Part shown: piece by piece, positions 15,666-63,730 of the stretch
Layout of the letters: the number at the start of each line of letters is the position of its first letter
Numbering within the stretch: position 1 is the first letter of the stretch
Program-made: the position numbers and the translations under genes
The notes under the pieces: generated by a model
Told to the model about the DNA's origin: nothing
Databases searched by the model: none
The model's input: only the letters and a program-made list of their open reading frames with translations
Source of the DNA: Lineus longissimus
Taxonomy: Eukaryota; Nemertea; Pilidiophora; Heteronemertea; Lineidae
Assembly (NCBI RefSeq): GCF_910592395.1
Contig: NC_088308.1
Location: 22,457,501 to 22,521,500 of the forward strand
Direction of reading: 5' to 3'
DNA: 64,000 nt

Positions 15666-18430
15666 CTATAACTTTGTTGATTTCTCGTCGAGTACAATGC
15701 CGGAATGACCAGTGATATTTTTATCGTACTGCGACGCACTCATGTTGTCGTACATTTGATTCTCGTAACCCTTTGGATCGTTGTATTCCATGCCTCTCAT
15801 TGGCCGAGAGTTCGTGGCATAAAGACTGTTGTCGAACGCAGCGGATTGAAATACATCATTTTGTTTCGTCTCGATGTCACTTTGGGAATCATCATCGATG
15901 ACGCCATCATCTTGATCTTGCGAGAAGTTCACGAACACCTAGATATTGGAAAAGATAGGTCAATTTTTTCTATCTCACAAACACCAAGTACACAGTGATG
16001 ACCACTCATTGGAAAGCTCGTGATGAGCAGAGTATGATCGTATGATGATTTGTGTCAGGATAAAGCTTTCCTTTGATCAATGACACATTTTCTAACATGT
16101 TCTCAAAATAAGGCTAATTCAGCTTACCTGGTCAAGGGTTGTTTGGTTGACTGAGTAGTCTTCCACCCCAAGGATATGTCTCTCATCCTCCATTAAGGCG
16201 AAGATATTGGGAAGTTGGGACATATTGGAGGGGATATTGAACACCAGCAATTGGAAATGTTGGTCCTGAAACGAATATGACATGAAATTCTGAATATATT
16301 GTACTTCTGACCTTCACACCCCTTACTTATATAGAATGAAGGGGTCTCTCTGTCAGTCAGTTACATAGGGTGTGGAATGAAGGGTGACTCTTTCAATCAG
16401 TTCCATTTAGGAGGTATGCTCTGACTTCTTGAACAATTACACCAACAAGAATGTATACAAAATATTTCAGCACAAATCAAGCCCATGCTCACTGAAAACT
16501 TACCTTTAGGACGGCACCGGGGAATCTACTCTGAACAAACTCAGTAACCTCTAGCGGACTTGCCTTCTCTGAGAGGCGGACAGTGAGCGTGTAACCCTCC
16601 CCAAACCTGGAAGGTGAAAATCGAATGTCGAAATAGAAAATAGGAAAACTCTGAGGGAAAATCAGTAAGATGACTCTCATTATTTGTTGAAAGGCCGTGC
16701 AGAAATATGGTGGTGGTGAAAGCATTACACAGCAGAACCTCCCTTAGCAGACACCTCTTGATTAAGGAAACCCTCTCTATTAAGGACACCCTCTCTATTA
16801 AGGACACTAGTTGTGGACCCAAATTGGTTGTTTCCATTCGATTGGACCACTCAAATCAGGACACTGGTATCCTTAATCATTGTTGATACAGAAGTTCTAC
16901 TGTACATGTAGCCTCAAGTTCCTTCAAACACAAGCCATCCCAGACTTGTTTTGATCTGAAAGATTTCACATATCGTAGAAAACGGTGTTTCTTGATCTCT
17001 GTTTCCAGAAACACTACTTGAGTTTTCCAACGGCATGCTGAACACTTACTTGGATCGGAGATGCTGCGGGCTTCCCAAACATCTGAACTGACCATTCACC
17101 ATGATGGCTATCCTCGTACAAAGGAATTCACACTCGTCCATCTTGTGGGACGTGAACACAATGGAGCGATCGTCGTGAATCACATCCATCAATGCGTTCC
17201 AGACATATCGTCGCATCTGGGGGTCCATACCAGCAGTGGGCTCGTCCTGCAAGCAAACAGAGATCGTCAAATCAAAAGAATATTTGAAAACTTTGTGAGC
17301 AAACACATATGAAAGTGGAGTTGTGTGATTTTAGGAGGGCCGGCATATTCTAATTGTCAATAAGAAGAAGAAGTCTGACCCAAATTGACACCTAACTCTA
17401 GTGGTATACAACAAAATTATTCTTTAGCGAAATCTGAAGAATAAGTATGACGATCATAAAAGGCATTTATGCACAGATTTTCTTACCAAGAGTACAAGTT
17501 GTGGGTCACCGATCATAGCAATCGCTATGGATAGTCTCCGCCTCATACCGCCGCTGTAAGTCGAGACGACCTTCTTCACACAGTCTTGGAGGTGAAGCAT
17601 ATTGACCAGGTCTTTGATAACCTAAAAAAGAATGGAAGCGTATCTGTAGAATCTGTCTTTTCGCCATACTAACAGGGGAAATGATGTTTTTCAATATGCA
17701 GGGAATGGTCCAAGATTACGTTTCAGATTCGGGATAGAGGAAAACTCAAGCAAATGGGGATGGAGGAGCTAAATTAATAGCAGACTTACCCTGTCTGCAT
17801 CTGGGCCACTGATCCCCTTCAATCTGGTGTAACAGCGCAGGAGTTCACCGCCCGTCAACTGCCGATCTAACGCGTCAAACTGCGGGCAATAGCCGACATT
17901 TGATGAAAGGTTTGACGTGCAGTGTGTGATGTTCTTGCGGAAGAGACGGGCTTTGCCACTAGAGGGAGGCACTTCACCGGTCAGCATCTTGAATGTGGTC
18001 GTCTTGCCGGCACCATTGAGACCAAGCAGACCGAAGCACTGGAAACAAATTGTGTGTATAATAAGTAATTTCGGTAATGATTCCAAAAAATGTCAATCGC
18101 CATCTTAACTAGAAACTGTATTTAAAACAGGGTCATAAGCCATTGTGAATCTAGGTATTAACTTTCCCTGCTAGATACATCATCGCAGCGATGCACCAAC
18201 AAAGTTAGCACCACTTGTTGATTTCAAATAATTCAAAAGAACTTACATCTCCCCTCGGTATCCCAAGACTGACATGATCGACGGCTCTGACTGAGTGCAT
18301 GCCGCTGCGGTAGTACTTCGAGAGTCCCTTGACCACCAGCATGTCATCTTTAGCGCCACCTGTCATCACGCGCTTTGTCTCTTGAACGACGTCATCATCT
18401 TCTTCGTCACCGTGGGTTACAGATCTTGAA
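15666..18430 (-). CDS. ABCA block: NBD2 and C-terminal tail
   Basis: Exons 18247-18430, 17790-18038, 17487-17621, 17050-17246, 16504-16606, 16128-16265 and 15666-15938. Walker A is [11 protein letters not shown]-loop YCPQFDAL, signature [12 protein letters not shown], Walker [14 protein letters not shown] (split by an intron) and H-loop [10 protein letters not shown], so the second ATP site looks functional. The regulatory segment ends with [18 protein letters not shown], nearly identical to the ABCA1 C-terminal signature. The last exon adds an acidic tail with many Asp/Asn residues that ends in T-K-L, a possible class I PDZ ligand; ABCA1 also ends in a PDZ ligand, though of different sequence. 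Confidence 0.93.
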
Positions 18431-21400
18431 CTAGGAGGAAAAGGCACTTTGATATAATACAATCCGTGGTAAGGAATTCTAGGGGGGAGGGGGCATTGCC
18501 AGAGAAGGGTGTTCTCAAAAGTTACTGAATTTTCACGATTCAGAGATTCATGCTGAAAAGTTTTTCTGGTCCATATCAAAGAAAAGAAAAGGCGGGCAAT
18601 GCTGATAAAATATCTGTGTCAGCATCATTTTAGGTGGTCAATCCGGTTATCGCAAACTGACAAATTTTAAAATACAGCCTTTATATCTGATTCAAAAAAC
18701 TCCAACACTCTATACTCACCCATTTGAACAGCATTCGCAAGTCGTCTCCATCCATATTGTGATGAGCAAGAAGACGACACCCTGAATACCGAGAGCGACG
18801 AAATGCCAGCCCAGCATCTCGAACGAGAACGGACTCTTGTAGACGTCTTCATTATACGGTTCAAAAATATCGGCCAGGATCTGGTTACGAGCGAGCTTGA
18901 TGAAGCCGTCGCCAAGTGCGAAGGATGGTGAGGCAAGGAAGATGTACTCGATGTAGTATAAGGCAGTCTTCACAATCTGCAACCAAGAAATTCACAATTT
19001 TTCAATGCCATTCGCCATCCAATTTCTTTCAAGAATCACGACAGTGGAAGAAAATTTAGCCATTGTTATACTTTATATGGTCAGTGAAGCATATATCTTT
19101 ATCACCTCTGTTCATATTAAGCTTGACAGTAATAAGTCAGGAACGGATCCCCATTTTGCGAGTTGTTGCCAGAAGGCTATCATTGCTATTTTCTGCTGCG
19201 CCACTCCCCATCCATGTCGTGTCCGCTGTTGCCAAATTTATGAGTTGCCCCGATTATATAGCAGCACCTTTTCAAAAAAGATTCTGTGCAAAAGAATGCA
19301 CCTGCATCAAAAGCTTACAGCACTTACCGGGCTTGCAGTGACAAAAGTTCCTAACAAGAATGTACACAGCGTCAAGGTGATTCCAATGAACAGAAGGAGG
19401 ATGAAACTGGTCATGAAAGCTGAGCTGGCATCCTTAAACGTGCGCACCATCATGTAACAGAATGGAGTGGCGGCCCAACTAAAACAAAAGAGCACAAAAA
19501 TCCATTAGGACTTTATACTTTGAAAAAAAACCTACATGTATTTGTTTTAAATACAAAAATGTGTTCTCTTAAACAATGTATTATGACACTGGGCATCCCA
19601 AGGGCTTTTAATTGATTCCCAATATTTCATACTCACAAATCAAGACCTCTTTCATCTCTGAACTCATAAAAATTAATGTGATATAGGGCATTTCAACAAC
19701 GTGCAAATCACGTACATGTGGTCATTGATCTTCAGGTGAGCATTCATATATCTTACAGGGGTTTTAGGAAATCTTCAAGAGGACACTTTCCTATTACCAT
19801 AGCTGGATAGGACCAATTTTAATAGTTCCCAGGTACATTTTGTCTACAAGTATGTCTACATTGAAACCATAAAACATAAACTTACCCAAAGAGAATCATG
19901 AGTACCACAGATGCTTGGAGGTTCTGCCTGGCCACGTAGATTGGGATATCGAAGCCATACATGATGCCCGCCGCGACACCTACAGGGATCGCGAACATCA
20001 ACTGAAAGGATTGGTTGAATATTAACTTGAAATTAAATACTTGTTCCAATTAAAAAACAGTTTTTGCTATTTATTTATAAAACTCATGACGTTGTAAGAA
20101 TTCTCAGCCTTTCAAGTGTTTCTGCCTAAACTTTAACACGTACCATATCCCAGAAAATGGAGGTCAGCCAGTACAAGACAGGGCCTATACCGTAGACGAA
20201 CTGGAGTCGCTTCTCCTGGTTCAGATTCTCGGCAACCGGGTAGATGATGAGGCTGGCTGGGATGAAGCAGAACGCCACTAGGATGACAATGGATGTGCCA
20301 AGATGGGACGCCCTCTGGAGACTGGAAAGATGAGCAGAATACGTTATTAAGGCCTATGTCGTTAAATATTTGAAATTTTTAATTGAGGTTTTAAAATTTC
20401 AAATTGTGTAAATATATACCGAATGTTAATTTCAACAATGCCGTTATGCAGAGAGGTATCATTTACTATGAATACAAAGTTTCGGCAACGAATACCGCGC
20501 ATATTAAAATGCTACCCCACCCCCGGAGGAGGAATACTCCCTTGAGAAAAATCACCTCCAAGTGCTGAGCGAACGCTAAAGAAGAAGTCGTCAGGGGAAT
20601 TGTTAGAAATATACATACATGGTTTCAGCACTCAGCTGTTCCGTGGTGAGTGGAAGAGGATGATTGTAGACTGTGATACCTAAACAAAGACAAGGTCACG
20701 AAACATTTAAATAAGGATTGTTGCAAGTAGAGCATGGGCACACATGTTTGTAAGCTGTTCATTTAACGCAACAATGAAAATGATGCAATTAAAGTAATGA
20801 CTAATAATTTGCCCCTAAGGGTGGTTTTTGCAGCCTGACCCCCTGGTAACACCAATGCACATTACACAACCTGTCAGACTTCATGCAGACAACTTAAGTT
20901 CCAACGTTTCGATCCTTACCATATTCTGAAGGGTCTTGCCCGAGAATTTCCTTGGCATACTTCCTCTGCACCGCATTGCTCAGGCCGTTCACGTATGATG
21001 GCAGGCTGTGGATTCCTCGATTATTAAACCAGACGGTCGCAGTCTGGTCCTGAGCGGCCGCCGATTGGGTGTTTCCAAATTCCCAGCCACCAAACCTGAA
21101 ACAACAGTGAAGTGTCTTTGTCAGAGACAAAAGGATATACCTCACACTGTGTTAGGCTTTACCGTAAACCATGAAATTTTCATATGAATTTTCCCACGAA
21201 AGTACTGTCAAGTGCTAACACAAGAAACCAGCATTGTCATGCAATAACCATTAAATTTCAGCACCCAACGCAATATTGACATGAAGTCTACCACCAACTG
21301 AAAATGATGAGCACATCGTGAAGATGTCACAGTTTGCAGTAGAGTGAATGAAAATGACTCGTCACAAATTACAGAGACCATCAATCAGTGTGAAATACTT

Positions 21401-24400: not shown

Positions 24401-27400
24401 CAGACTGAAACACTGGAAATGGTCAAGGAATTGAGATGCATGTCCAAAATAAAACAGGCGTGGAACAAGGACTTCTAAAGCAATTTTCTTTGTAAATACT
24501 TTAGAGCCAGTTAATTGAGAGCGAAATGTACTAAATAACTAGTCTTCAGCCAAATGTACTAAAATCACAGCAAAATGTACTAAATAACTGGAGTCTTCAG
24601 CAAAATGTTCTTAATAACTGCCGTCTCAAAGTGACTTGTTGAGATAGTTCGATTATACGCCAATTTGTTAATCGTTGAATCAAACACGCAAATTAAGATA
24701 ATCTTACGTGTTAATCAGATCTCTAAACTACAGTACTTACTTGGGTAGTGAGCGGAATCCAGGCATACAATTGGTTGAAATTCCAGGAGGGCCGAGTAAA
24801 CTCTCTGACATCAATTTGTTGAAGTTGATTGGGTTTGAATTCCTTTTTTAATGAAAAATACAAATTACAAATTTGATCACAAACTCCATCAAGGGCCCCT
24901 TTTTGGGATATATCAGGAAATACTAACAAATGTCCTATGATTCCTGGTATCTGCAGCACCCCCTTGATTTTGTTTCTTAAATTTTTTAGTAAGGGGGTAG
25001 AAGTCAAGATTTTTATATTTTATCTCACGGATGCATAAAGCTTGACTTAATTCCAATAAACAACTGTTTCATGATTTCTTAACTAAAAATGGCAAAATCG
25101 TCACAACAGCATCATAAGCTTACTTGTAGAAGACATTTCCTCCATACAGAGCCGGCGTCATCTGTCGGGATCCGGAGTCCCCAACTCCTGGTGATACGGT
25201 GTTGGTCCACATTGCAAAGGCAATAAACAAGCAGGGCAGAATCAGATACGTAATGAAGCCTCGGAGGAAGCGACGATGGTGGTGGAAGCGCTTGACAAAG
25301 AGCGACCAGAACTGGATGAACTTCAGAGCAATGCCGCCCACTTTGAAGACGGTCTTCTTTCGTTGCTGGGTCGAGGTTCCGTTGATGCCATCTGTGCCAC
25401 TGATGCCATTCACCCCATTGATGCCATTTGTTCCATTAGCTCCCTCTGGTGGCTGGGCTGAAATTGAAAAATGTTTACATTTAAAGGGTGTGCCGAAAAA
25501 GCTTGAAGAATGCACTAAACTGATGCGATTATCTGTCAATAAACCAAAGAGTTGAGCACTCTTCAAATATTTTTTCAATCCAACTGTACTTTTAATAGAA
25601 AATATGGGCCAAGAATAATCCGCTTAACGATGTCTGATGGAGTCAGCATGGGGGGGGGGGGGACTGTCTACTACATACCTCCATTGACAGGCGCTGGTGG
25701 CTCCTCAATGCTCAGAGACATGACCCCGTTGTCTGGGGAGGTGCCGTTGGTCTGCTTCATGCTGTGTTGATGATGCATCTCATCGACATTCTCGCGTGTC
25801 AATTGCTTGCCATTGTCAGCCAGGTGGCAAAGACTCAGGAACACCTGAAATATAAATTTTTATCAGAATCAACCAAATTTAGATATCATGATGGAATCCA
25901 CACACAACAAAGGCACGGTGGTGCTGAAGTGTTATTACATACCTCCTCTAGCGTAGTGTCAGACACACCATAAGACGAGATCATCAGGTCATTAGTAAAC
26001 GTGTTGAGGAGGCTGAAGAACTTGTGGTACGTCTCACGCTGGCTGATCGGGAGTAACACGCGCACTTCTGATCCGACTTCTTCCTCGATGTAGGCCCCGG
26101 GTAGTTCTCGGCTGATGAACTCCATAACGGCACCGCTGTCGAATGACTTGACCTGAAGCAGAACATGTGTATTTCATGAGCACATCCTTTTTCAGGAAAT
26201 ACTTAAAGGAGAGCATTGTCATGTAGGACATTAGAATGCAGGAGTTAACCCTGATTTTAGTACAAAGACCCAACAGCACAGTGGCACTATAAATTATAAG
26301 ACAAACCTACCGAATCTGCAGAAGCATCAGGGTCCACTTTCGATTTCGAGATAGTCAGGAGGTAGCCTCGGCCGAACCTGTTCTTCAGGAACATGGATGA
26401 TCCGGTGCACAGGAGTTTGCCCTGGTGCATGACGGCAATCCTGTCTGCAAGAATGTCTGCTTCATCCAAGTGATGGGTGGTCAGCAGGATGGTGCGGCCT
26501 GAAAAATGTAACAATCAAATAATTATATGTTAGCATTGATTAGGAGACAATATACAAGAGGACACACTGAAGTCAAAAGCATCCCCATTAATTTTCTCAT
26601 TTACAGGACTTGCCCAAGCTCACAATATTTCTTTTTCAGGCATCAAATTCACACACGACTGACACCCTAACCAGCATATTCCTGCCCATGAAATATCTGA
26701 TCACCGTACCTTCTTTGTGTTTGGCAATCAGATCCCAGATGTTCCTCCTGGCCGCAGGATCAACGCCAGCCGTCGGCTCATCAAGGATGACTACACGGGA
26801 ACCGCCAACAAAGGCGATGGCGACCGACAGACGTCTTTTCATACCACCCGAGAGGTTACGCACTTTCTCGTTCTTGAAGTGGCGCAGGCCCATTGAGTCC
26901 AGTAGGCTAGAAAGGAGTTAAGAAATGAGTGAGGGAATTTCCAAGTGTTCCCAATTCAGTTGACTACAGAACTGCTTTTGATGCAATCATGCGTTTGTTA
27001 AGAATTTATAAGGTAAGGTTTTGCAGCAGATGTCACAGTCAATTTTCAATCAAAATTTGAAGTCCGTTGTTTGGAAGACTACAGATTAGCTATTTACTCG
27101 CTTAGAAAATTAGTATTGGTATTACACATCCATTGCACTTACCTAGAAATGTCTGCCTTCAGTTTCTTGGCGCTCAAAATGCCTTTGAGCTTGCCAAAGA
27201 ACTTCATGTGTTCCTTCACCGTCATACTGGGAAAAATAGAAAGACAGTAGAATGATGTGCTGATTTTGGAATCTTTTCCTCTGCATTTGCTCTTTAAAAT
27301 AGCCTGATATGGAAAACACTCATGTTTCTAGCCAAGTGATCTATAGGGCCTTTGGCTCTGAATTTGGCCGAGGCAATGTGGATGAGAGACATTTCAATAC

Positions 27401-30400
27401 ATTTGTTGTTAACTAGCCTGGCTTACACTGTTCCTAGGTGCTACAAGAGATTTAGGTTATTCATGCAATGTCACCTGGGAGGGAGGTTTACTCTATCGGA
27501 AGTCCCTTTGTACCTTGTCCCCTACAAAGCTGTTGTCGCTCAGCCTTTGGTCAAGTGGAAAGATACTGTTCACTTGGATAGGCTATTGACGTGATGTTCA
27601 AAAGAAAGGTTAAAGACTTGTTCTACTTACGAATCGAAGAGGACATTGTGTTGAGGGCAGTAGCCAAGCGTTTTGCGAATCTGGCTGTACTCGGTCCAGA
27701 TGCTCTTGCCGTTGATGTAAGCAGAGCCAGATGATGGTGGGAAGATTCCACATAGCATGTTGCTGTAACAAGAAATTTTTAAGCGTCAATTTCTTGAACT
27801 TTGAAGGGGTCAAAAAAATCTGACATATTTTCAAAAATCTAAACCCTTTTGCTGCCTATTGCCATGTAAATGCAGCTTTTTCAATTGTTTACTGAATACT
27901 GTACTCAAAATCTTTGCATATTGCTGCTATAGAGTCAGAATTTTGTATCAACCATAGTATAGACAGGCATCTCTCAATAAAACTCACATCGTGGTTGTTT
28001 TTCCAGCTCCATTCTGTCCAAGCAGGGCAGTGATCTGACCCTCGTAGAAATTCATGGACAGGTTATTGACAGCAACCTTCTTCTTCTTGTACTTCTTGGT
28101 CAGGTGGTGAATGGAGATGCCAACTGGAAGATGGACAGGCTCTGACTCGTTTAGGAAGCTCTCTGGATCTTCTAGAAGAAATGTCAGAATGGGAGATCGT
28201 AAGTCGAAAAGTTTAACACCTTAAATTTCTAGTTTCTTTTTGATAACTTTCATGATTGTCTTGAAATTGACTGAATTGGAAATTATGTTTTTTTAACAGG
28301 AATCCAAATTTTGTACCACCCAGAAATTTATAGTATTTTTAACATTTTACACATTCATGCGGAAAGGGGTAACTTTGAACACCCACCAGAAAGCATTCAT
28401 CTGTCATCTGTCTGTAGTCACGTGTTTAAAGATACCCCATTGACCAAATTAAGCCACCCCATCTGACAGTATTGTTAACGATGCCATCATTTTGTTCTTA
28501 CAAGGATTTTCTTAATAAATAAAAGTTAACTGAGTCATTATTTTGTTGGTTAGCAGATGATACCACAGGTGAGCATTAAATCATTGTTAAGAGTTCAGCA
28601 ATTAATTTGCCTTGTGCTTGCTCGAAAGTCTTATGGTGTGTTCACACTGGATGCGAATTGAAACCGAATTCCGTAGAGCGCTCTCCGGAATACGAATTGA
28701 TTAATCCAGTTTCAGAACGGTCGCGTCACACTGGCCCGAATACGCATTCAAATTGGTTTAAAACGCGCCACACTCAATGCATACTAACGACGCGCCATCT
28801 ATTATTCTTATTATTATTATTTATTAACCTCCCATATGGGAGAATAAAATTTACGAGTACAAAACATATAAGTATATAATATCACAGTATCACACAGTCA
28901 TTATTAACAAGTTAAAATCGCGTAAGGTGCTTGACCATTTCCATCTCCCGGCCATGCCTATTGCCAAAGTTCGGGTCAAAAAGGAGTGTCCTCAGCGAGT
29001 CAACACCACCGTCGCTATTAGCGGAGAATCCCGGCCTCGCCCTCGAAAACGAGGCCAAAACCGGGGAAAACCCCGCCGCGACGATGTTGCTGACCAGCGT
29101 ACCTTTGACCAACGAACCGGCGGCAACATACCTTGCCAGGAAATGGAAATGCAAGTCACGTGCAAGGCAGTTGATTTTTCCCTATTCTATGGCATAACGA
29201 AAAACGATTTGAGTTAATGAGATCATTTAAATACATCAGTTAACTAGTTCGGAGCACTAGTTCCCGCGGTCAAAGGTCACTTTCCATGCGCCGGGCGCAT
29301 GCGCAGTGCGATCGAAAACCTTAATTCATATCAAGCGCGTCACACTTGAAATCTCAATACGGTTTCGTTGATTCGGATGAGCTGATTCGCATTCAATTCG
29401 GTTTAAGAACCGTGTTGGTTAAAGCGGATTGAGATCGGTATGAACCGAATTGAGTGTGACGCCCCAATACGTATCAACGTTTTAATTCGAATTCAATTCG
29501 TGTTAAAACCCCAGTGTGACCACGGCATTATATGCCATGGTCTTACTGCCGAGGTGAGGTCCCCCAGAACTACGGAATAGGGTCCTAGTTTGGAAGGGCC
29601 AGGATACACAAGGAGGCGACGAAACCATGGCAAAATAATTTGAGTGGATAGCATGCAAGATAATGCATGTGTATGGACAAAATGAAAGAATATGTATGTG
29701 TATACATGGACAAAATGCTAGAAAGCACGTAGACAAAACGTCCATGGACAACATGCAAAAAAAGTTGCATGGACACGGTGTAAAAATAAGCATGTACAAA
29801 GAACTTGAATGGACAATATGCAAGAATATAACATGTACATAATAAGCATGTACATACAGAACTTGTGTGGACAACATGCAAGAACATTGCATGTATATAC
29901 AGAAATGTGTGGACAACATGCAAGAATATAGCATGTACACAGAACTTGTATGGACAACATGCGATAGCATGTACATTGTTGTATATACAGAACTTGTATA
30001 CATGGACAACATGCAAGAATATAGCATGTACATTTTTGTATATACAGAACTTAGGTGGACATGTACATAATAATCATGTACATACAGAACTTGTGTGGAC
30101 AACATGCAAGAACATTGCATGTATATACAGAACTTGTGTGGACAACATGCAAGAATATAGCATGTACACAGAACTTGTATGGACAACATGTGATAATATA
30201 GCATGTACATTGTTGTATATACAGAACTTGTGTGGACAACATGCAAGAATATAGCATGTATATACAGAACTTATGTGGACAACATGCAAGAATATAGCAT
30301 GTATATACAGAACTTATGTGGACAACATGCTAGGAATATAGCATGTATACAGAACTTGTAAGCAGGTACAGTAAACTCGAACAGAAAACATGCACAAATA

Positions 30401-33400: not shown

Positions 33401-36400
33401 TCCCCCATGGTGTTAATGCTGAGCTGCTGTTAGTGCGACGAAAGACATTGTTTACAAAAAGCATTTATTCTAGTATTCATAATCTAACATGCTAACTATT
33501 TTAGGAATTTTACCTATTTTTGAGGCAAGTGTACTGCTTGTGGATGCCATTGGTGTGAATTCACGATCTGTCTTTTTCAAATGATAGGCAGTTTTCACTG
33601 AAATAATATTCAAGGTGCCATCATTAAATTGGCACCTGTGACACAGAAGTATGCCATACTGATATTTGTCCTAGCCTATTCAACCTTGTCACACCTCTAA
33701 TATCAGTCACCAGCAACGCTCTCAAAAAACTTACATGAAAATGGCCAGGATAATACACGCTTTTGTGTGAATGACTTTAAAGTTGACTCAACCTGTAAGC
33801 GTGCTGATTTCTACATACACTAGTTGAGGCACCATACAGTGCAAAGGTTTCAGAGCATAGCGAAGTTAAAGAAAAGTTGGCCACACTGCAGAGGGGTTTC
33901 AGCTAATCCCTTTGAATCGTTCCCGTTAAAGACTAATGACAATTTACCATGGTTTTTAATAACCCAGCCCTAAATAATGAATCTAACTCCCATGATGCAA
34001 TATCATGGCTTTGATGTTGTTCATCACACAGAAGAACCAAACAATTAAGGAACCTTGGAACATTGTCCAAGTTGGCATTGGTTGCTTAGATGTATGTACC
34101 ACCAATCACACCCTACAGTTAAAAGCAGGATAACACAGCAATTGAATTTGATACCAAATGTTACTGAATAGCCAGAAAATCATTTGTTGTATTTCCGAAT
34201 GTTAACTTACCAAATTGCCAGCAAAGTACATGTATGGACAGAAGATTTTGCATGAAGAATTGAAGAGTAATGGTAATGATATCAATAGCGAGTTTCAGCA
34301 AATCAAAATATTATCTTCTGCAGGACGATATCGATTTTACCAAGAACATGTATGTACATGTATAGTGATTTTACGTATATATGATGTAAGGTAGTTTGCG
34401 GCCTGGCTGAATGTAGAATGGACATGGATACGTCATGCGGTAGAGATTTTTTGATTTGCCGAAACTCGCTAATAATGACAATGAATAAGATGATCCAATC
34501 CGATCAGAGGGCTTGTCGAAATTGTGGTTAAGTCTTAAACACGATAGTAGAAAGTGAAAAATCCAGCAGAAGAACATACCAGCTTCGTTGTCTTCATATA
34601 CGGGGTTCCTGTAGGCATTCTTGATGGTGTACTTGGCCGCCTGGTCCTTCTTTGTGCAGCAGAAACAGCCCCAGTAACGCGGAAGGAATGGGAAATAAAA
34701 CGGTTGCGGCATTCCAAACTTGCCTGAAGTAATCACAAATAAATTTAATTATAGACAGTGTAGAATTTTCTAATATATCTAAGAAATGCTCCCTGTATAA
34801 GATCTCTGAAATTATTTTAAAGCATGATGGCTGAACGTTATTTCAGGACATTCCTAATAAATATTTGCAACAGATTCATATTCCGCTCACCTGGGAAGAC
34901 ATTCCGGACATACCAGCCGATGATGAAGTAGATTGCCCCGTCGATGACCATCATGATGCATGCCCATGAGAACGTGATGATCTCACCAGGGTACACATCG
35001 TAGATATTGTCCCATTGGATGCCGACACCCATCTCCTCGTAACGTGACACGTAACCCGCAGCGAAACTGAACGCTGATGGTGACAACAGTGACTGTGAAA
35101 AACAGGCAATTATAGTTAATAAGAGAGTAAACATTGAACGTTGATATAGTCATTCAAAGAAACTTTTTTAGTTATCTCTCTCATTTATAGTTAAGTCAAA
35201 GAGATCATAATATTTATTATATTAAAAGGACTATTAAGTATATTTATAGCAGCAAAATCTACTTGAAGTGATCAATGACACCTTACATATGATATTCACT
35301 TACTCAGCTTAAATATTTCTCTCGATATGATAACTCTTAGAAATAAAGGTTTTGGGGGTTCAGTCCAAACGAATATGCACCACCTAATGATATTTTGCAA
35401 AACTGAAAACCCCGGAAGGTTTGAGATTTTGGAAACACCGACAGACACTGGTGCCATGAGATACAGCAATATTGTAAGCAAAGGGAAACTACACCATGTT
35501 ACTGAAAGTGCATTAGGCATGTTAGAAACACCACGCCTACTTTTTGAGACCTGAAAGCGGTCCAGGCTTCCTGTCATGTTCCAATTGCAACCCCACATCT
35601 ATTCAAATTCCCCAACAAGTTCCTTTGGCATTATGACATCTAGGAATTAATTTCAGTTCAAGATGACAGAGATGAGACATGAGTCTCTTCTGAAAAAATC
35701 TTTCAGAAACAGCCTGTGATAAGAAAACGCTGAAGATGATGAGCATGCTGATGACAGTTCTAGAAGGGACCAACCACTTTCGTCAAAGGGCCGACTGCAG
35801 CACTGGCAGTGCCAAAAAAATGCTTTCAGGTCAAATAAACTACTGATGATGTGACACATTGTGTATTGCATGACACGTCACGATCAAGTTACAGTCAAGT
35901 TACGACGTTTCTGATGTCACATGTCTCCTGATCAGAAGCTCATTGGACGTGGAGAAACACTTTTTTGTCACTTTTGTGCTGTGACTGCACCTTGAAAACG
36001 AAAGCTACGTCCCATGTAGGATCACTTTCAAAACATGCTCAACTTACTGCTGCGGTTTTGTGTAACCAAGTCAAGTCATACATGAGTGCCGTCACTACAG
36101 TGTATGGGAGGTAACTGAGAACATATACAACCATCCCCACCAATGCCGCCAGATTTGACTTTGTGAAAAATGCAGACGTCATATAGCTGGAAATAAGCAC
36201 GATACAACACGAAAAGATTAAAGCTGTGTTGCCTATTTTGAGTGATCTAGTGACAAGATTATTTACTGTTAACTGCCAAATTTCGCAAATAACCCATAAA
36301 TGTCGATTCAGAAAAATAAAAATCATAAAAAATATATTTGATTTTTAATCTGCCGAAATGAAAATTATGAAAAAATTTTGAAATTTTTGAAATTTTTGAA

Positions 36401-39400
36401 ATTGCTAAAATAAAGGCGCATGAAATTTTTGGCAGTTTACAGCATGTTAAGCATTTGTTATGGAGTTGCAAAGATACAGAGACACGGAGGTGCAACTAAA
36501 GCACTATGTATTAAAGGCCAAGTTTCTTCATTCAAATTTTGAAATTTGATCTTTGTGAACTTGAGATTTTTCAATGATGGGCAAAGAACATGATGAATAT
36601 GATGAATGCAATTTCTTTAATTGCAACTGTCACCACTTACATTTTACCAGTAGACATTCCCTGGTTTCATGACACCACCACAGACAGGTTTTTAAAAACC
36701 ATAAGCTTGCTACATATAAACAATCTCAGCAAACAAACTTGGCCTTTAAGACTACCAAAGAGTTATTCATTAAAGTGGCCCTTTCCTGCTTTGAAAAATA
36801 TCCTTTAAAGGGCAACTCGTGTCAATTTTCACTATATAATGTTTTAGCTGTTTTTGACAAATGACTACGTCACTTTCTCATAAATCGGTAAGGTTTTCGA
36901 ATCGAAATGCATATTTTCTAGAAATTGATGGATTAATCCCGCCCGGACGGCTCACTTCGATGCCATTTTCGTTGATGACGTCACAACATGAACATTTTCG
37001 CGGTCGCGGTGGTTTACATTCAGCGATTTTATACTAAATCTAATCAAAAATGGAAAATTTGAGCTTTACATTTGTGATCAACAATTAAAAACGGACGTAT
37101 TTCTGCAAAGTTGTAAATCACATCATAGTATCACTTTAAGATCTATTTTGTGTGGTGTGAAACCCCTGCCCTCTTTACAGTAGAACCCCTCTATCAAGAA
37201 CACACTTGGGACAGTCCCTTATCATTGTCGTCGCATTTTGCATGGAAGACATTCTGAGGTATTTTGATGATATATTTTATTCAACATGAACAATTTACTA
37301 TTGTTTTAAAGGAGACTATTCACATTATGCATGTTGGAAAAGACCACTTTAAAGCATATTCACCAAAAACCAAAACAATAACCAAAAAAGTTGAGACAAA
37401 TTATGTACAATAAATGAAGCACAAGGTCAAAACCCCAAGTCTGATTTTTCTTATGCAGTATCAGCTAGAGATGATACTTCCTTGAAACTGTTGTGGGGAC
37501 GAAACACGTGACGTGTTTTTTCCCATATAGTGAGTGCAAAAGCAAAACGAACAGGGTTTTGAAACCTTGCCTTCAACTATCCACCTAAAAAGCAACTGCA
37601 CTATATAGGGTGTCTCAAAACCATATGTACATGTACAGTTACTATTCCCACTTACAAAATAATACGCTTCGTTATACCGGCCCGTCATTCCAAGGGCCTC
37701 ATGGAATGTCCAAGGCAAATAGCCAAACATATAGACTATGATGCCAGCCATTGATGCTAAGCTGGCGCGGGTGAAAAATGCACTTATCAAATAGCTGAAA
37801 GAAAGACAAGCAAATGAAAAAAGGCATGCGAACAGATAACAATTTTGCAGTCCTATTTTTGGTATGGTCTATAATTCTGAGAAGTGCAGCTAGTCTTTTT
37901 AAAGGGACTCTATAGCCAACAGCTAAGTAAGCAAGATAAAGTTACACAAAGTGGCCAATAGGGGTTTCTCCCATCTCACAGGACATAGAAACTGTTCAGG
38001 CTTTCACAGGGAATATGTTTAGTGCTGAATCAGGACCCAGTGCCGTACCTATGCATATTAGTCACCCAAAGATGGCCAATTTTAGCCCCTGCTCCTGCCT
38101 ATAGTCCCCCTTTAAGGCTATTTCACTAGCCAGTTTCATTATTAAACACTACCTATGTTCACACTATATCAGTTCCAATTTGCTCCATGATTCCAAATCT
38201 GCAGAATTTGAGGAATTAAGGACATCCGTAGACTGAGGCTGTTTTTCCTACATATTCTAACTGATTTCATCAGTGTACAACCAGTCACTATGATACCACC
38301 CAACTGGCAAGCCTACCTCGAGGGTCATAGCTAAGCTTTTGGTCTCAGTACAAAAGGCTCCTGGGGGCAAAATGACCCTTTTGAACTGATTTGGCCAAAA
38401 TCCTGGTCAAAAACCTATTTTTTGGTGACCTGCTGCTGGCTACACCCCAGCTCCTGTTGCATAGCAAAAATAAAGAAAATAAATGATAAAATGTACGACA
38501 AAGTCGAATTTATCAAAAACTTACCAAAGCATCGTAGTTGAAAACGAAAATGCCACTAGTAGGAGGATCATGAGCAACCAACTGCTGTATGGCAGCAGGT
38601 TCGACAACTTCAAGATGACGATGATGAGGATTGACATGATCACCTGGCTGATCATCGTCGTGAAGAACCACGACAGGAAGTTTACGACGCTGCTCATACC
38701 CATCACTCGCAGGGTCTGAAATGGTAGATTGTGACGCGGTACAGGAGATGACTGGATCAAGACCAGACAAAAACACATAATTATTACTTCATTGTTTCGG
38801 GTCATTTTGAATGAAGAATAAGATACAACTTGATAATTCATTGCGTTTATCCTTTAAAACTTTCAAGCATAAACACACAGGAGACCAAGTACTGCAGGAG
38901 TACATCCAAATATGTCCAAAAACATTCTACCAAATGTTTGATGATGTGTTCACCACCAACAAAAAGCTGTATTGCTCTTTATGCAGCAATGATATTAGAG
39001 AAATTAAAGTAAGTTGAACTGAGGCCTGTCTCATGTGGGTGTTAACCACTCAAAATATACATGTACTCAAGAATTAATAAAGACAAGTCTTTATCAAATT
39101 CTTGATGTATGCTGTGTACCACATCACTGTTATGCGATTTTAAAAAGTTACTTCTGGGAGTAACTGTGATAATCAAAATAGACGAATCAAAATACACTTG
39201 CAAAACACGCCATTCGGAGATTCTGACAATTTACTACCTCGCACAATCCTGTCTCCCGTTCAGATACGATCGCACGGATCATGACGGCAATCTGAACGAA
39301 CCACGCCAACACCATCAACAATGGGAGCAAATAGGTGAAATAGTTAAGGAAGCTGTAGTGAAGAGAAGAAAATGTGTGCGGAGGTTAAATTAGCAAGCTA

Positions 39401-42400
39401 TTACTCTAACTGTGTCACCAAAAGCTGTTGTATTGAGTACAGGGTGCCTCGAAAAATTTGTCAAACATAGTCCAGTTTCCATCGGACAAAAAGGCCTAGA
39501 GTGTTACTGCCCCAAATACAGTCTGACCTCAACATGCATCTTCCCTTTTGAACAATAGTCTTACTATTACATATTCAAGACAAATTTGTTTAAGCTTTTA
39601 TATTTTCGAGTTATTGTTGCAAGAAATGAATTTTCAATTTGTTCGAAATATTTTCGTGACACCCTGTACTAGCTTTTCCTTGAACAAAATAACATGTGCT
39701 TAAATTGAACGAGGTTATAATTAATACCAAAAACAAAACTAAACAGAAATCATGGTAATAATCAACAGCAAGAAAGGCAACCTTACACTGCCCACCACAC
39801 CACACTATGACATGGACTTGGGTGCACTAATGTTTGCTCACTAGGTGGAGCTGAAATTTGGCCCGAACCCTCGGCAAAGTGGATTCATTTTAGCTCCAAC
39901 CTAATAGTGTATGTTAAGACAACCAAAACCTCCAGTTCCGTATCAACTCCTTAACCATAGTTATTTCAAGAATGTGAACAATGTGCAAAAAAATACCGAG
40001 ATTAAAGGGTTTACACGCCAATAACGCGATTTACGGCAGTCAATAGTGATTTCGATTGTACTCCTCTATATTTTTGCAATAAGCTCCTACTGGCTAAAGC
40101 ACTGATTTTAAAGCATCATAACTCATTCAACCCCAGGCTCGAGCAGACAACATCTACTTAAACCACGTTTTCTCAAAAATTATTAAGACAGAGGCGAGAA
40201 AATCTGTGAAGAAGAGTTGAGCATATTAACATTTTAACATCTGAACAAGTTTCTTCATTTTGGAAAGAGCTATGGCAACGCAGGTGAGGTAGTCTTTTCT
40301 TTTGACACCTCTTGTAGTTTCAATCAATATTTGCTGCAGAATAGTTGCCGGGTTGAAGAGATGGCAGTCGCCAAGCGATGGGATTGAATGAGGTTAGAAT
40401 CACTAGGTGTTATTTCCCCTAGAACAATAACAACAAGCTACCTCTTCCATGCCTGACTCTCGATCCTTAACCGCAGAGGCAATGCCAGATGCAATAAATA
40501 TCAACCAGGCCAGGATCATGATCAATTGCAATAAAACGTGTTTGAAACGTCCAAAAAAGCTGAAAAAAATTGCGATAAAATGTAGCAGATCGGCATAATT
40601 TCTCACAAGTCGCAGCAAAAAAGCATGCAGTCGCTGAAAAAAGTAACAAATCATTCATTGGCCCGACTATTTCCATGATTTCCTCAATGTTCTCTCTGGA
40701 TAATACTGGGACCCGCTGATCATATTGATCGTTATGGGCCGGCCTTTCAGCCAAGGAGGGGGGAGTCCACACAAGCTACTCATGTTCCCCACTTGGTGGG
40801 GTCTTTTACTTGCCCTGGCATAGACAACAGAAGCAAGGATCCTCAGTTTTAAGTCTCATTCGAAGGACTGTGAAGAGCCTGGAATTTTTGTTCAAATCTG
40901 CATTATAATGCTGAGGCCATAGCCAAAAGAAGTTGTATCGAAGTACAGAAGGGTAGCCACGTTTCTACATGTACTTGCCTGTCAGAGTTATAACAGGGGT
41001 AAGGGAACTGCTTGACTTTCAGTGACGGTGTTGCAATGGTTTTGCCCACCTGGGCGCTGATGATCGCCTTGTCCACCATGTCTTGTAGCGGGACAAATGC
41101 CCTCATGTAGCGAAGATCACTGGCAAAATCGTCGCCTGGGCCTGACTTGGAATATCTGAAAAGATAAGAAGACTGGGGTCAAATTTAAGAGAAATATTGC
41201 AAGGAACTTTCCAGGTGATTTTAAACAAAAATATATATACACGATGCCATAGCACGGTTTTCATGCAGGCAAATTCCCTGAAATTAGATTTTTATAGTAC
41301 TAAAATCTAATTAATTTAATTAATTAATTTAATTAATTAATTTAATTTTGATTTAATTTAATCTGCCTACACCACAGAATTGTTGAAATCTATTTTCAGT
41401 TGGTATCTACACAATTATAAATTTTCAAATTTGAGTTCAACTTTCGAATTTTTAACAAAAGTTAAATATGCCTTTAAGACTATTTTGACTTACTCTTGGT
41501 ACTTAAGATAGACTGCAGGCGTGTTGTCAATGTCCACTCTGATCTTATACTTGACATGTTTGGGCATGACGTCTGCTGTTCCATTTGGCGAAGCAGCACG
41601 TTTCTTTCTATTTGAGGTACCATCAATGAAAACAAGCGCTAGAATAGAAGAGAGAATGTCACAGAAATGGTAAATGCCCTAGCAGGATAGGCAATGTTCT
41701 GTTTCGGTCGATCAATGATAGTGAGACAACCACATTCATACATGAGCAGACGACATCCAGGCCTTTCAATAACATATGTTTGGTACATGTGAGAGCTTCT
41801 ACTTTTCAAACAAATATGGGAGCTCTTACTATGGTTAAAGTGGCTGCATTGTTTTTTGTGTCGTCATTTGCGTCAGAGATCAGAAAACTACCCTTCCACA
41901 CCTTAAAACATTTAGAAGAAATCTTAGTGCTATTTCCTGCAGCACTTTTCAGTTTTAACGAAGCCAAGAAGTTGATCTTACCCGCCATGACCTTCCTATT
42001 TCTTCCAAGCTCCGCAGAAACTTTCTCGAGTTCTTTTTCATCCTTCACGCCAACGTATCTATCGAGGTCAACGCAGTCGGTGTAGTTGAGCATCATGCTT
42101 GAATAGTACAGCATCTTCTCCAAGTCGTCGGTCTGGACCAAGGAGAAGCTCTCCATCATTTTGATCAACTCGTCTCCTTTCATGCCCAATGCTTCCTCAA
42201 TTGCTCCACTCACGAATGGGTTGGTCAGAGCATCCTGGAAAAGAAGCGACATTCTGGTGAACGTGTACAAAGGGTACAATGGTCAGGAAACTTTTATCGA
42301 CACCCCCCTCCCCCATGAGTAGCATCGCTGACAGAAGCCAATCCTTCCCTCTTTCCTACCTTCAGGGTGTTGATGTTTTCAGTGTTGTTAGTAATAGCAT

Positions 42401-63400: not shown

Positions 63401-63730
63401 TTTGTTGGGTGCCGTAGCAGTTGGTCACCAATTATGGTAATGGCCAATAGCCACCATCTGGGAGCTAGGGGTTTACCCTAAGGTAACAAGCAATCACTTG
63501 TCATATTTATTGCTTCCAAATTTGGTTGACAATTAGGCAACTCGAAAAAAATCTGATTTGATATGACTTGCATTCTACGATGAAACTCATTGATTGCAAT
63601 GTTGATCTTACCATAGGCATCTGCATCGAGTATGTAAGCACGTCAAATAAATATGGTGCATTATCAAGGTACATGAACAGTTTTTTCAGCTCTGGTGACT
63701 TGAACAGGTCCGACAGGACGATATGAGTCT
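15666..63730 (-). CDS. Giant ABCA-subfamily ABC transporter, ABCA12/ABCA13-like (5' end outside window)
   Basis: 72 coding positions (74 exons counting two alternative pairs) were placed by splice sites and phase; they sum to 14,732 nt, exactly two leading bases plus 4,909 residues and the stop at 15666. Transcript order: extracellular repeat array, ABCA1-like membrane-proximal ECD1, TMD1, NBD1, linker, TMD2 with ECD2, NBD2, tail. Both NBDs carry Walker A, Q-loop, signature, Walker B and H-loop. Family knowledge: ABCA proteins are full-length transporters or floppases that move lipids, with ECDs forming a hydrophobic conduit; substrates here are unknown. Length and the huge ECD1 match ABCA12/13 (human ABCA13 is about 5,058 residues) rather than ABCA1 (2,261), though the core can be aligned with ABCA1 throughout. 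The first membrane helix and start lie beyond 64000. Exon lists are in the block entries. Confidence 0.93.
16727..16906. repeat. MITE-like repeat (CAGTAGAACCTCTCTAT family)
   Basis: Intronic. Left end ACAGCAGAACCTCCC, right end the inverse of ACAGTAGAACTTCT, with an internal direct duplication of CCCTCTCTATTAAGGACA. Fragments of the same family lie at about 37175-37215, 49009-49035 and 57090-57115. Confidence 0.5.
18720..25457 (-). CDS. ABCA block: TMD2 and second extracellular domain
   Basis: Exons 25124-25457, 24741-24842, 21541-21795, 20920-21095, 20619-20679, 20144-20321, 19886-20001, 19328-19478 and 18720-18976. TM7 is [20 protein letters not shown]2 matches ABCA1 closely: a Cys-rich stretch ([11 protein letters not shown]), then [18 protein letters not shown] and [18 protein letters not shown]8-TM12 follow, with the family loop [16 protein letters not shown] between TM8 and TM9. 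Exon 24741-24842 has a weak acceptor (AT-rich before AG), but its 102-nt length and phase fit exactly and its [10 protein letters not shown] aligns with ABCA1 ECD2. Intron 21796-24740 is 2.9 kb and filled with repeats. Confidence 0.9.
21961..22154. mobile_element. Small TA-flanked MITE with duplicated left arm
   Basis: The 60-bp segment 21961-22020 is repeated at 22021, identical for at least 50 bp. The second copy begins an element CAGTCCAGATCACAATTGAC (22040) that ends with GTGGACTG at 22154, flanked by TA on both sides. Same family as 43381-43553. Confidence 0.6.
22250..22567 (+). mobile_element. 3' end of a CR1/L2-type LINE with (ATT)n tail
   Basis: Conceptual translation across frames gives [20 protein letters not shown]-like text ending KTQLF, the usual C-terminus of non-LTR reverse transcriptases of this group. 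An AT-rich 3' tail and a run of ATT triplets (22535-22567) follow. Frameshifted and dead. Confidence 0.55.
23403..23862. repeat. Candidate MITE with CAGNGTGTCCCA ends
   Basis: Left end TTCAGTGTGTCCCAAAAA, right end the inverse of TACAGGGTGTCCCACAATC; intronic, AT-rich interior, no coding potential. Ends resemble the element at 39440-39666. Confidence 0.45.
24080..24210 (+). repeat. Dispersed repeat, copy 2 (related to 10200-10335)
   Basis: Shares ordered words (CCAGGAGCCAGAAAAAG, TGTCAATTTCAAAGATT) with the reverse complement of 10200-10335. Intronic in the ABCA gene. Confidence 0.6.
25378..25844 (-). CDS. ABCA block: R-like linker with collagen-like G-X-N triplets
   Basis: Exon 25679-25844 plus the start of exon 25124-25457. 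After NBD1 comes a polar His/Gln/Asn-rich stretch ([15 protein letters not shown]), an acidic/Pro segment, then seven consecutive Gly-X-X triplets, mostly G-I/T/V-N (25378-25443), before basic residues and TM7. By topology this lies in the cytoplasm between the two halves, so it is not an extracellular collagen helix. The underlying DNA is an imperfect 9-bp repeat, which suggests recent slippage growth. Confidence 0.8.
25943..28171 (-). CDS. ABCA block: NBD1
   Basis: Exons 27988-28171, 27631-27762, 27143-27226, 26710-26906, 26311-26498 and 25943-26152, all phase-consistent. Walker [11 protein letters not shown] (split by an intron inside the Ile codon), Q-loop [10 protein letters not shown], signature [11 protein letters not shown], Walker [15 protein letters not shown] and H-loop [11 protein letters not shown] are all intact. 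The following exon, ending [10 protein letters not shown], is the regulatory segment after NBD1. Confidence 0.94.
28631..29527. mobile_element. Candidate non-autonomous DNA element with imperfect inverted ends
   Basis: Left edge reads GGTGTGTTCACACTGG and the right edge, inverted, GCCGTGGTCACACTGG. Both arms contain several CGAATTCAATTCG-like inverted words. The centre is GC-rich. No transposase and no certain target duplication. Confidence 0.5.
29640..30365. repeat. 43-bp minisatellite
   Basis: Tandem, variable copies of a unit containing TGGACAACATGCAAGAATAT and GCATGTATATACAGAACTTG. Copies are most regular in 29860-30340 and decay to the left. Confidence 0.9.
32458..32650. repeat. 21-bp minisatellite
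   Basis: Tandem copies of AGGAACTCCACTGGTACCAAT with substitutions; being a multiple of three, it stays open in some frames and mimics a Val/Pro/Gly-Thr protein. Confidence 0.85.
34580..41155 (-). CDS. ABCA block: TMD1 (TM2-TM6) with two alternative exon pairs
   Basis: Shared exons: 40979-41155 (ends [10 protein letters not shown], the conserved approach to TM2), 38525-38715 (TM3-TM4, starting TLRVMGM and ending LLPYSSW...TTML), 34891-35092 (SLLSPSAF...GIQWDN and TM6) and 34580-34723 ([10 protein letters not shown], into the linker before NBD1). Between them lie two duplicated exon pairs: TM2 (40442-40559 or 39238-39352) and TM5 (37656-37794 or 36048-36186). Every junction is in phase with either member of each pair. 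Alignment with ABCA1 is continuous. The donor after 40979 is GC rather than GT. Confidence 0.92.
36048..36186 (-). CDS. Alternative TM5 exon A (ABCA TMD1)
   Basis: 139 nt, phase 2 in and 0 out. Begins with the last base of a Cys codon, then [17 protein letters not shown] and SYLPYTVV. Acceptor TTATTTCCAG and donor GCA|GTAAGT are strong. It has exactly the length and phases of exon 37656-37794 and is about 37% identical to it (17/46, ungapped). Matches the ABCA1 stretch between TM4 and TM5. Confidence 0.88.
36804..37140. repeat. Possible MITE between the two TM5 exons
   Basis: Starts CTTTAAAGGGCAACTC and ends ATAGTATCACTTTAAG, a weak inverted pair. GC-richer core with CGGTCGCGGTGG. Lies in the intron separating the alternative exons. 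Confidence 0.35.
37656..37794 (-). CDS. Alternative TM5 exon B (ABCA TMD1)
   Basis: 139 nt, phase 2 in and 0 out; [17 protein letters not shown] and [10 protein letters not shown]. Acceptor CTTTCTTTCAG and donor TTT|GTAAGT are strong. Both TM5 exons keep the SAFFT, G..VY and YLP positions typical of the family, so neither looks like a pseudo-exon. Including both (278 nt) or neither would shift the frame of everything downstream. Confidence 0.88.
37899..38116. mobile_element. Short MITE with AAAGGGGGACTATAG ends
   Basis: Left end TAAAGGGACTCTATAG and right end the inverse of CTTAAAGGGGGACTATAGG. A related copy with the same internal order (TAAAGTTACAC, CAATAGGGG, CTATCTCAC) lies at about 45970-46110. 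Confidence 0.6.
39238..39352 (-). CDS. Alternative TM2 exon A (ABCA TMD1)
   Basis: 115 nt, phase 2 in and 0 out; encodes [18 protein letters not shown] then ERETGLCE. Acceptor TTCACTACAG, donor GAG|GTAGTA. About 42% identical (16 of 38) to exon 40442-40559 and aligned with ABCA1 TM2 (MPLFMTLAWIYSVAVI). Confidence 0.87.
39440..39666. mobile_element. Tc1/mariner-type MITE between the two TM2 exons
   Basis: Starts CAGGGTGCCTCGAAAAA and ends with the inverse of CAGGGTGTCACGAAAA; TA flanks both ends (39438-39439, 39667-39668). 227 bp, non-coding. Confidence 0.65.
40442..40559 (-). CDS. Alternative TM2 exon B (ABCA TMD1)
   Basis: 118 nt, phase 2 in and 0 out; encodes [18 protein letters not shown] then DRESGMEE. 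Acceptor AATTTTTTTCAG, donor GAG|GTAGCT. One codon longer than exon 39238-39352. Joint inclusion or joint skipping shifts the frame. Confidence 0.87.
40973..40979 (-). other. Non-canonical GC splice donor
   Basis: The exon ends ...TCTGACAG and is followed by GCAAGT. CAG|GCAAGT is the standard GC-AG donor consensus. The GT four bases further on would break the frame, and cutting at GC gives the correct phase 2 for both TM2 exons. Confidence 0.8.
41494..44886 (-). CDS. ABCA block: ABCA1-like membrane-proximal ECD1
   Basis: Exons 44682-44886, 44210-44239, 43212-43355, 42781-42920, 42360-42476, 41982-42234 and 41494-41638. After the repeats comes a Pro/Gly-rich spacer ([18 protein letters not shown]), an acidic 30-nt microexon, and then sequence aligning with ABCA1: [20 protein letters not shown], a helical stretch, and VFIDG...[14 protein letters not shown]. 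This is the most conserved part of ECD1, so the orthologous core starts here. All phases close exactly. Confidence 0.9.
43381..43553. mobile_element. TA-flanked MITE (CAGTCCAAGTCACAAATGA family)
   Basis: Starts CAGTCCAAGTCACAAATGA and ends with the inverse of CAGTCCAAATCACAATTGA; TA on both sides. 173 bp. Relatives: 22040-22154, a left arm at about 46454, and a right arm near 12041-12060. Confidence 0.7.
44210..44239 (-). CDS. 30-nt acidic microexon of the ABCA gene
   Basis: Lies between TTTCAG and GTGAGT; encodes TAPESEPES, with phase 1 on both sides, so it can be skipped without a frameshift. Its size and location in a Pro/Gly/Ser spacer make it a candidate optional exon. Confidence 0.7.
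45058..58213 (-). CDS. Intron-rich part of the ABCA repeat array (U6 d to U14)
   Basis: Exons by unit: U6 d 58010-58213. U7 57620-57834, 57140-57270, 56856-56968, 56534-56695. U8 56141-56364, 55912-56048, 55275-55405, 54857-55054. U9 54507-54724, 53957-54087, 53365-53486, 52890-53090. U10 52458-52642, 51944-52196 (b and c fused), 51566-51766. U11 51092-51309, 50737-50867, 49995-50122, 49387-49584. U12 49052-49254, 48558-48780 (b and c modules largely missing). U13 47642-47829, 47338-47459, 47026-47150, 46664-46861. U14 46194-46399, 45775-45902, 45460-45578, 45058-45258. Exon 47338-47459 has a second in-frame acceptor nine bases downstream (start 47450), which would drop three residues. U12 is the only degenerate unit. 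Confidence 0.88.
45058..63730 (-). CDS. ABCA block: tandem-repeat array of ECD1 (13 units plus partial ends)
   Basis: About 2,890 residues made of a ~225-residue unit with modules a-b-c-d. Where separate, the exons have fixed phases: a 0-2 (185-224 nt), b 2-1 (122-137), c 1-0 (113-131), d 0-0 (162-207). Module b has predicted helices ending 'VxxILGxLxG'; c follows with LxxLFxN...; d has an invariant Cys pair (e.g. SLVCNEAAL...GAMCNKN). N-x-S/T sequons are dense, as expected for an extracellular protein. Units in transcript order: U1 63730-63023 (c, d), U2-U3 62594-60910, U4-U5 60556-59243, U6 58869-58010, U7 57834-56534, U8 56364-54857, U9 54724-52890, U10 52642-51566, U11 51309-49387, U12 49254-48558, U13 47829-46664, U14 46399-45058. 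The function of the repeats is unknown to me. Confidence 0.88.
46454..46565. repeat. Partial MITE copy
   Basis: Begins TACAGTCCAAGTCACAAATGAC like 43381-43553 and contains related words (GACGCACCAGTGAAGCGCT), but the right inverted end is missing. Confidence 0.5.
47890..48290. repeat. 44-bp minisatellite
   Basis: Tandem units alternating CAGTGGGCACCTGGTGATAA and CAGTGGGCACCCCRTACTAC, about eight copies, in the intron between U13 a and U12 exons. Copies are nearly identical, so length variation is likely. Confidence 0.93.
48383..48497. repeat. 19-bp minisatellite
   Basis: Six near-perfect copies of CAAACACATTCTGTTCTTT, 61 bp before the exon ending at 48558 (downstream of its donor on the minus strand). 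Confidence 0.93.
50258..50725. repeat. 35-bp minisatellite ending beside an exon
   Basis: About 13 copies of a unit with AGAGCTAGACCTTTAACTTG and TTGTGAAACTCATGT. The array stops only about 10 bp from the donor of exon 50737-50867, so the intron is largely repeat. Confidence 0.93.
53600..53720 (-). mobile_element. Remnant of a CR1/L2-type LINE reverse transcriptase end
   Basis: The minus strand reads [20 protein letters not shown], resembling the WNxLP...SLxxFK motif near the end of these ORFs, then stops. Intronic. Confidence 0.4.
54126..54290 (-). mobile_element. SINE with tRNA-like and 5S-rRNA-like segments
   Basis: On the minus strand, TGGCCCAGTGGTTGGCGCG (54235-54253) resembles a tRNA A-box region. 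It is followed by GAAGTTAAGCAACGTTGAGT and CTTTGGATCGGTGACC, which match the 5S rRNA internal promoter (AAGTTAAGC...GGATGGGTGACC). The 5' and 3' parts of 5S are absent, so this is a SINE or pseudogene and not a working 5S gene. It lies in a U9 intron, in the same sense as the ABCA transcript. Confidence 0.7.
58375..63730 (-). CDS. Intron-poor part of the ABCA repeat array (U1 to U6)
   Basis: Exons 63612-63730 (c of U1), 63023-63229 (d of U1), 61491-62594 (1,104 nt: all of U2 plus a-b-c of U3), 60910-61116 (d of U3), 59243-60556 (1,314 nt: all of U4 and U5) and 58375-58869 (495 nt: a-b-c of U6). All large exons are phase 0-0. Inside them the a-b-c-d order and the Cys pairs (TALCGDAL...ESLCKAN; SICASGL...MMCKLN) are kept, but the introns at the usual module borders are absent. 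Human ABCA13 is likewise known for very large ECD1 exons. Confidence 0.9.
60588..60720 (+). mobile_element. tRNA-type SINE with conserved CORE/MIR-like 3' domain
   Basis: Begins GGGGCGACGTGGTCTAGCGC (A-box-like). Further on, TGTGATCTTGGGCAAATCAC followed by GAGATGTAAAA closely resembles the domain shared by MIR-type and other ancient SINEs (TGTGACCTTGGGCAAGTCAC...TGTAAAATG). It sits in the intron between U3 d and U4, antisense to the ABCA gene. Confidence 0.6.

Follow-up and report, generated by a model that had tools for sequence, protein, structure and literature searches.

Tandem exon pairs for transmembrane helices TM2 and TM5 in an ABCA transporter gene of Lineus longissimus: a candidate for combined exon swapping in a lipid pump

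Introduction

Can a single gene equip a lipid pump with alternative versions of the membrane helices that touch its substrate? This question is raised by a stretch of 64,000 nucleotides (nt) from the nemertean Lineus longissimus (contig NC_088308.1, positions 22,457,501 to 22,521,500 of the forward strand), which was analysed as a whole and is referred to here as the window. The minus strand encodes a transporter of the ABCA family between the window's right edge and about position 15,900, as recognized from matches of its spliced pieces and from exon reading. An original prediction for this locus held that the gene swaps its fifth transmembrane helix (TM5) between two tandemly duplicated exons. 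The TM5 pair stands, but the proposal was too narrow in that it missed a second exon pair, which encodes TM2. With two tandem pairs in the gene, we consider it likely that each transcript takes exactly one TM2 copy and one TM5 copy, giving four pumps that would differ in lipid-contacting helices. Rather than one swap at TM5, the gene probably operates a system of two sites and four isoforms.

Results

The four exon copies that form the two pairs are, in order of transcription:

40442..40559, minus strand: TM2 exon copy c1, the 5' and divergent copy, 118 nt and 39 residues, phase 2 in and 0 out
39238..39352, minus strand: TM2 exon copy c2, the 3' and canonical copy, 115 nt and 38 residues, phase 2 in and 0 out
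37656..37794, minus strand: TM5 exon copy A, the 5' and divergent copy, 139 nt, phase 2 in and 0 out
36048..36186, minus strand: TM5 exon copy B, the 3' and canonical copy, 139 nt, phase 2 in and 0 out

Coordinates, lengths and phases of the TM5 exons are exactly as originally predicted. The two copies, expected to share about 37% of their residues at a spacing of 1.5 kb, are identical at 17/46 residues (37%) and 58/139 bases and are separated by an intron of 1469 nt. They retrieve each other in a search of the whole window (E 2e-9), although their likeness, which had been claimed without such a limit, is confined to the first 34 residues. The TM2 pair was spotted by reading the intron 5' of c2. 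Here, 17/38 residues are identical (45%) with one residue inserted (tblastn E 5.5e-6), the intron between c1 and c2 measures 1089 nt, and the splice sites within the pair are GT-AG. Both pairs thus consist of homologous neighbour exons with equal phases.

Comparison with 170 homologues marks the 3' member of each pair as canonical and the 5' member as divergent. For the TM2 segment, c2 is nearer in 168 homologues and c1 in 2; for the TM5 segment, B is nearer in 106 and A in 38, the remainder being ties. Helices like c1 or A are not claimed to be exclusive to this gene, given these 2/170 and 38/170 homologues. In c1, a Gln replaces the TM2 proline that is kept in 166 of the 170. The local match of copy A stops at residue 28-41 of 47 in 19 of the 20 homologues printed (no match was obtained for the other), and its 13-residue end bears little likeness to any of these 20. 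Identity of B to the nemertean TM5 (49%) exceeds that of B to A (37%), which fits an old duplication or a fast change of A.

The reading frame distinguishes sharply between ways of joining these exons. We tested 16 splice combinations, with none, one or both copies at each of the two sites, and found that four remain open into the first nucleotide-binding domain (NBD1), namely c1-A, c1-B, c2-A and c2-B. The other 12, in which both copies or neither are used at a site, run into a stop, in line with the frame shift that had been predicted for such joins at TM5. The TM5 splice sites had been described as strong. Their sequences are indeed orthodox, with acceptors ctttctttcag (A) and cttatttccag (B), the donor gtaagt in both copies and GT-AG throughout, but the donors are ordinary in strength, ranking 8th (A) and 11th (B) weakest among the gene's 26 donors scored by a leave-one-out profile (3 of our 29 exon models lie outside this set). 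The weakest donor of all is that of c2, followed by that of c1; donors this weak would be in keeping with regulation of which TM2 copy is taken. The shared exon upstream of the TM2 pair has a GC donor (positions 40977-40979, AG followed by gcaagt), which is the frame-keeping one in the gene model. GC-AG introns are often alternatively spliced.

Neither a short intron nor a clash between spliceosomes was found as a means of exclusion within the pairs, at intron lengths of 1089 and 1469 nt and with GT-AG sites (U12 motifs were not scored). Introns of these lengths are too long for steric exclusion. Inverted-repeat pairs in the introns number 10 (7 and 3) and are listed without a control. In three of the six intron pairs, pairing was compared with shuffles and none beat chance (17/60, 59/60 and 13/59 shuffles were as low), the whole-intron duplex being a weak test. 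An 18-nt intron pair with 89% complementarity (39746-39763 with 40665-40682), likewise taken without a control, would loop out c1 and is regarded as a lead only for a regulatory structure. Within the c1-c2 intron, a 20-nt inverted repeat with 90% complementarity (39436-39455 with 39651-39670) flanks about 195 nt and is perhaps a small transposon. Rfam gave no match within the window at gathering scores.

Spliced pieces with either TM5 copy align over TM2-TM6 to the PDB structures of ABCA1, ABCA4, ABCA7 and ABCA3, which agrees with the family and helix named in the original prediction. The ABCA-type membrane domain PF12698 is matched at 78.3 bits by c2-B and at 68.8 bits by c1-A (cut-off 31.6), and residues 2-180 of the membrane piece pair with ABCA4 645-823 at equal length. 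In the structural papers on ABCA4, the passages on substrate describe acyl chains held by TMs 1/2/5 and a phosphate held by Arg653 of TM2 and Arg587 of the first extracellular domain (ECD1), phospholipid chains resting on TMs 1/2/5/11, and TM5 and TM11 forming the narrow contact between the halves at rest (PMC8219669, PMC8501128, PMC7932691). A mild Stargardt variant at Cys764 of TM5 is described there as reducing substrate affinity (PMC8501128). By the equal-length match, the Arg653 position is a Tyr in c2, and by the same count the Cys764 position is a Val in B and an Ala in A. In the homologue alignment, the Arg653 position is occupied by His in c1, within the basic run RFKH, by Lys in Tubulanus and by Arg in an ABCA1-like record; the placement of the c1 His is uncertain, as the alignment of c1 with c2 puts the one-residue insertion elsewhere. 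With a basic run near this position in c1 and a Tyr in c2, c1 would favour anionic head groups. That TM2 and TM5 are both lipid-contacting helices was noticed after the fact.

Codon-position patterns suggest that the copies have been under selection as protein. Identity at codon positions 1, 2 and 3 amounts to 20, 27 and 10 of 46 for the TM5 pair and to 18, 26 and 15 of 38 for the TM2 pair, the first two positions exceeding the third in both (TM5 p 0.0007, TM2 p 0.049, pooled p 0.0002). At TM5, third positions are at chance level (10/46), which implies that the copies are old; as protein likeness is retained despite that age, free drift over most of the period is unlikely for either copy. Neutral drift was also simulated from the canonical copy, with 4000 copies per divergence level and with an open frame plus the observed family score as the requirement for passing. 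At 0.5, 0.72 and 1.0 substitutions per site, 0/4000 copies matched A or c1. Together, codon-position identity and drift simulation argue against long-dead copies.

Doubling appears to be specific to these two helices within the exons covered. All 29 exon models, the four copies among them, were searched against the whole window, and among the best 32 matches only the TM2 and TM5 exons emerge as clear tandem pairs; the others reflect likeness between the two nucleotide-binding domains or between the two halves of the transporter, and the remainder have E 0.003 or worse. The search revealed no tandem duplicate of the exons for TM3-4, TM6 or NBD1, nor of those for TM8 or TM11, where short exons (19-34 residues) could conceal a diverged copy. 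TM7, TM10 and the last exon are not all among the models searched.

The remaining exons that define the gene around the two pairs are as follows:

40979..41155, minus strand: shared upstream exon, the end of ECD1 (YPCYNSD), placed by reading frame and splice sites
38525..38715, minus strand: TM3 and TM4 exon, 191 nt, between the TM2 and TM5 pairs
34891..35092, minus strand: shared downstream exon after TM5, with TM6, 202 nt, placed by matches to ABCA structures
26710..28171, minus strand: NBD1 exons (28171-27988, about 27762-27642, 27226-27143 and 26906-26710)
17050..18478, minus strand: exons of the second nucleotide-binding domain, NBD2 (18478-18247, 18038-17790, 17621-17487 and 17246-17050)

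The gene accordingly has two nucleotide-binding domains, NBD1 being identified by a PF00005 match on 26711-26905 and NBD2 by exon reading and tblastn likeness to the NBD1 exons (E 1e-6 to 1e-8); the last listed NBD2 exon (17246-17050), queried alone, matched no Pfam family. Long coding stretches precede TM2 as far as the right edge of the window and probably form a giant ECD1, with TM1 lying beyond the window. Two large exons of this domain were queried and matched no Pfam family. Between 42000 and 64000 on the minus strand, the domain carries a loosely repeated two-Cys motif, for which a regular expression gives 11 matches, vs 5 on the entire plus strand; several long relatives have 5 to 12 within their first 3800 residues.

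On the basis of its size and its kinship to long invertebrate records, the gene is labelled ABCA13-like. Protein searches covered the best 120 of 1219 matches plus sets of 48 and 4, in a database that merges proteins at 90% identity. Among the matches listed, there was no record from L. longissimus itself and none specific to one isoform, the best identity being 48%. The closest match listed, Tubulanus polymorphus LOC141904723 isoform X2 (5377 residues, 48% over the searched region), shares the long N-terminal part with the present gene but has one TM2 and one TM5 where the latter has two of each. The matches listed also include long relatives, between 3188 and 5025 residues in length, in a hemichordate, an octopus, a snail, a scallop, a crinoid and a horseshoe crab. 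Trees built from short alignments (46 and 39 columns) gave no clear date for the duplications. In these trees, a single clade of the TM5 copies is not rejected (AU p 0.40), and the TM2 copies group as sisters with support of 36/70.

Elsewhere in the window, a neighbouring gene on the plus strand comprises a leucine-rich-repeat coding stretch at 5062-6318 (PF13855, 63 bits) and a long open stretch at 7948-9399 that matches no Pfam family. Further long open stretches at 29503-30270 and 63686-64000, seen in the list of open reading frames only, are simple tandem repeats, e.g., PLTANVRPLTANV.

Discussion

In the mechanism that we envisage, the copies of each pair would replace one another in the RNA. 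Exclusion would be enforced at least by incompatible phases, such that double or zero inclusion leads to a stop and presumably to nonsense-mediated decay. Of the possible exclusion steps, incompatible phase and decay of wrong products, acting together with some further regulator, is the best supported. The combination of c2 and B would represent the standard pump, from which c1 may depart by retuning lipid head-group preference at TM2 and A by retuning gating at TM5.

Several observations weigh against four working isoforms. The exon pairs are known here from genomic sequence alone, and no long homologue among the matches listed has both copies, in a database that merges splice forms. In TM2 and TM5 profiles built from the same 170 homologues, which are mostly vertebrate, c1 scores 33.8, below all 170 (minimum 37.0), A scores 39.6, under the homologues' 5th percentile of 52.3, and even c2 at 49.1 is slightly under the 5th percentile of 51.1. 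All four copies (36048-40559) have weaker codon usage than any of 21 further exons with which they were compared; for c1, A and B it lies inside the 95th percentile of open intron stretches. This weak bias is common to both members of each pair, canonical B and c2 included. Finally, when the simulated divergence is lowered to 0.25 substitutions per site, some neutral copies do match, 7 of 4000 for TM5 and 29 of 4000 for TM2, a result with which a recent decay of the 5' copies may be compatible.

Such a decay would mean that c1 and A are failing duplicates, formerly alternative exons and now skipped or rare, with c2 and B as the sole working form. It would account for c1 and A being the least family-like copies, for the missing TM2 proline and second weakest donor of c1, and for the weak codon usage. 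We nevertheless judge it unlikely: reading frames remain open in both 5' copies, and their GT-AG sites, phases and core motifs are kept; at TM5, third codon positions are at chance while positions 1-2 are above it; canonical B is equally weak in codon usage and the donor of c2 is the weakest of all; and the scenario asks for parallel decay of two exons, neither of which lost its open frame. The stops met by 12 of the 16 splice combinations could also be taken to mean that the chief role of the second copies is that of an off switch, with regulated wrong splicing of both copies or neither lowering pump output through decay and the proteins differing little. As an off switch needs no conserved second protein sequence, yet both pairs keep their likeness at the protein level, this is quite improbable. 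An artefact, whether from misassembly or from two interleaved gene copies, has nothing to commend it except the existence of the second copies, and we regard it as very improbable indeed, with residue identities of 37% and 45% far too low for split haplotypes, TM3-4, TM6 and NBD1 exons for which the window search gave no tandem second copy, and an exon order and strand that match one gene. Two pairs from which one copy each is chosen, as proposed above, is the reading that we carry forward.

Tandem exon swaps as such are known, including in ABC transporters. Tandem duplicated exon substitution is described for human ABCC9, Drosophila mrp and C. elegans mrp-1, as independent events in each lineage (PMC9741552); the main text of that paper contains no occurrence of the word ABCA. 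These genes resemble the present one in exchanging homologous tandem exons but belong to subfamily C, whereas here an ABCA lipid pump, so far a matter of sequence evidence, has two separate helices doubled. Muscle myosin heavy chain genes likewise hold several mutually exclusive exon clusters per gene, although their product is a motor protein and not an ABCA pump. The solved structures of ABCA4 and ABCA1 share fold and helix order with the present gene, which differs from them in its apparently giant first extracellular domain and in its two versions each of TM2 and TM5. Mutually exclusive exons in an ABCA gene were not found in the open-licence literature, outside which most subscription papers lie; this agrees, to that extent, with the original prediction, which knew of no described case. 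An oyster paper (PMC11988029) was considered as a possible ABCA case and rejected, "mutually exclusive exons" denoting an rMATS category in the relevant part of its text, and a survey of spider-mite ABC genes (PMC3724490) contains no term for mutually exclusive or alternative splicing. What would be new in L. longissimus is that an ABCA pump swaps exons for two of its lipid-contacting helices.

A wider interpretation, which we put forward tentatively, is that a single ABCA gene remodels its lipid path through splicing. Together with TM1, helices TM2 and TM5 form the lipid-holding part of the transporter's first half; each of these two could be supplied in two versions, and the resulting four pumps could have distinct head-group preferences and gating, probably deployed by tissue or stage. 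If true, no lipid pump, nor any other transporter, would previously have been seen to combine swaps of two separate substrate-contacting helices, as far as the open-licence literature reaches. ABCA13-type pumps are described as less well understood than any others in the family (PMC13161189). A protein that comes in two natural versions at precisely TM2 and TM5 and is otherwise identical would provide a ready-made experiment of four matched pumps, in which a comparison of lipid preference, direction and ATPase activity would show which helix sets what. The gene would also add lipid pumps to the ion channels and ABCC transporters in which exons are swapped.

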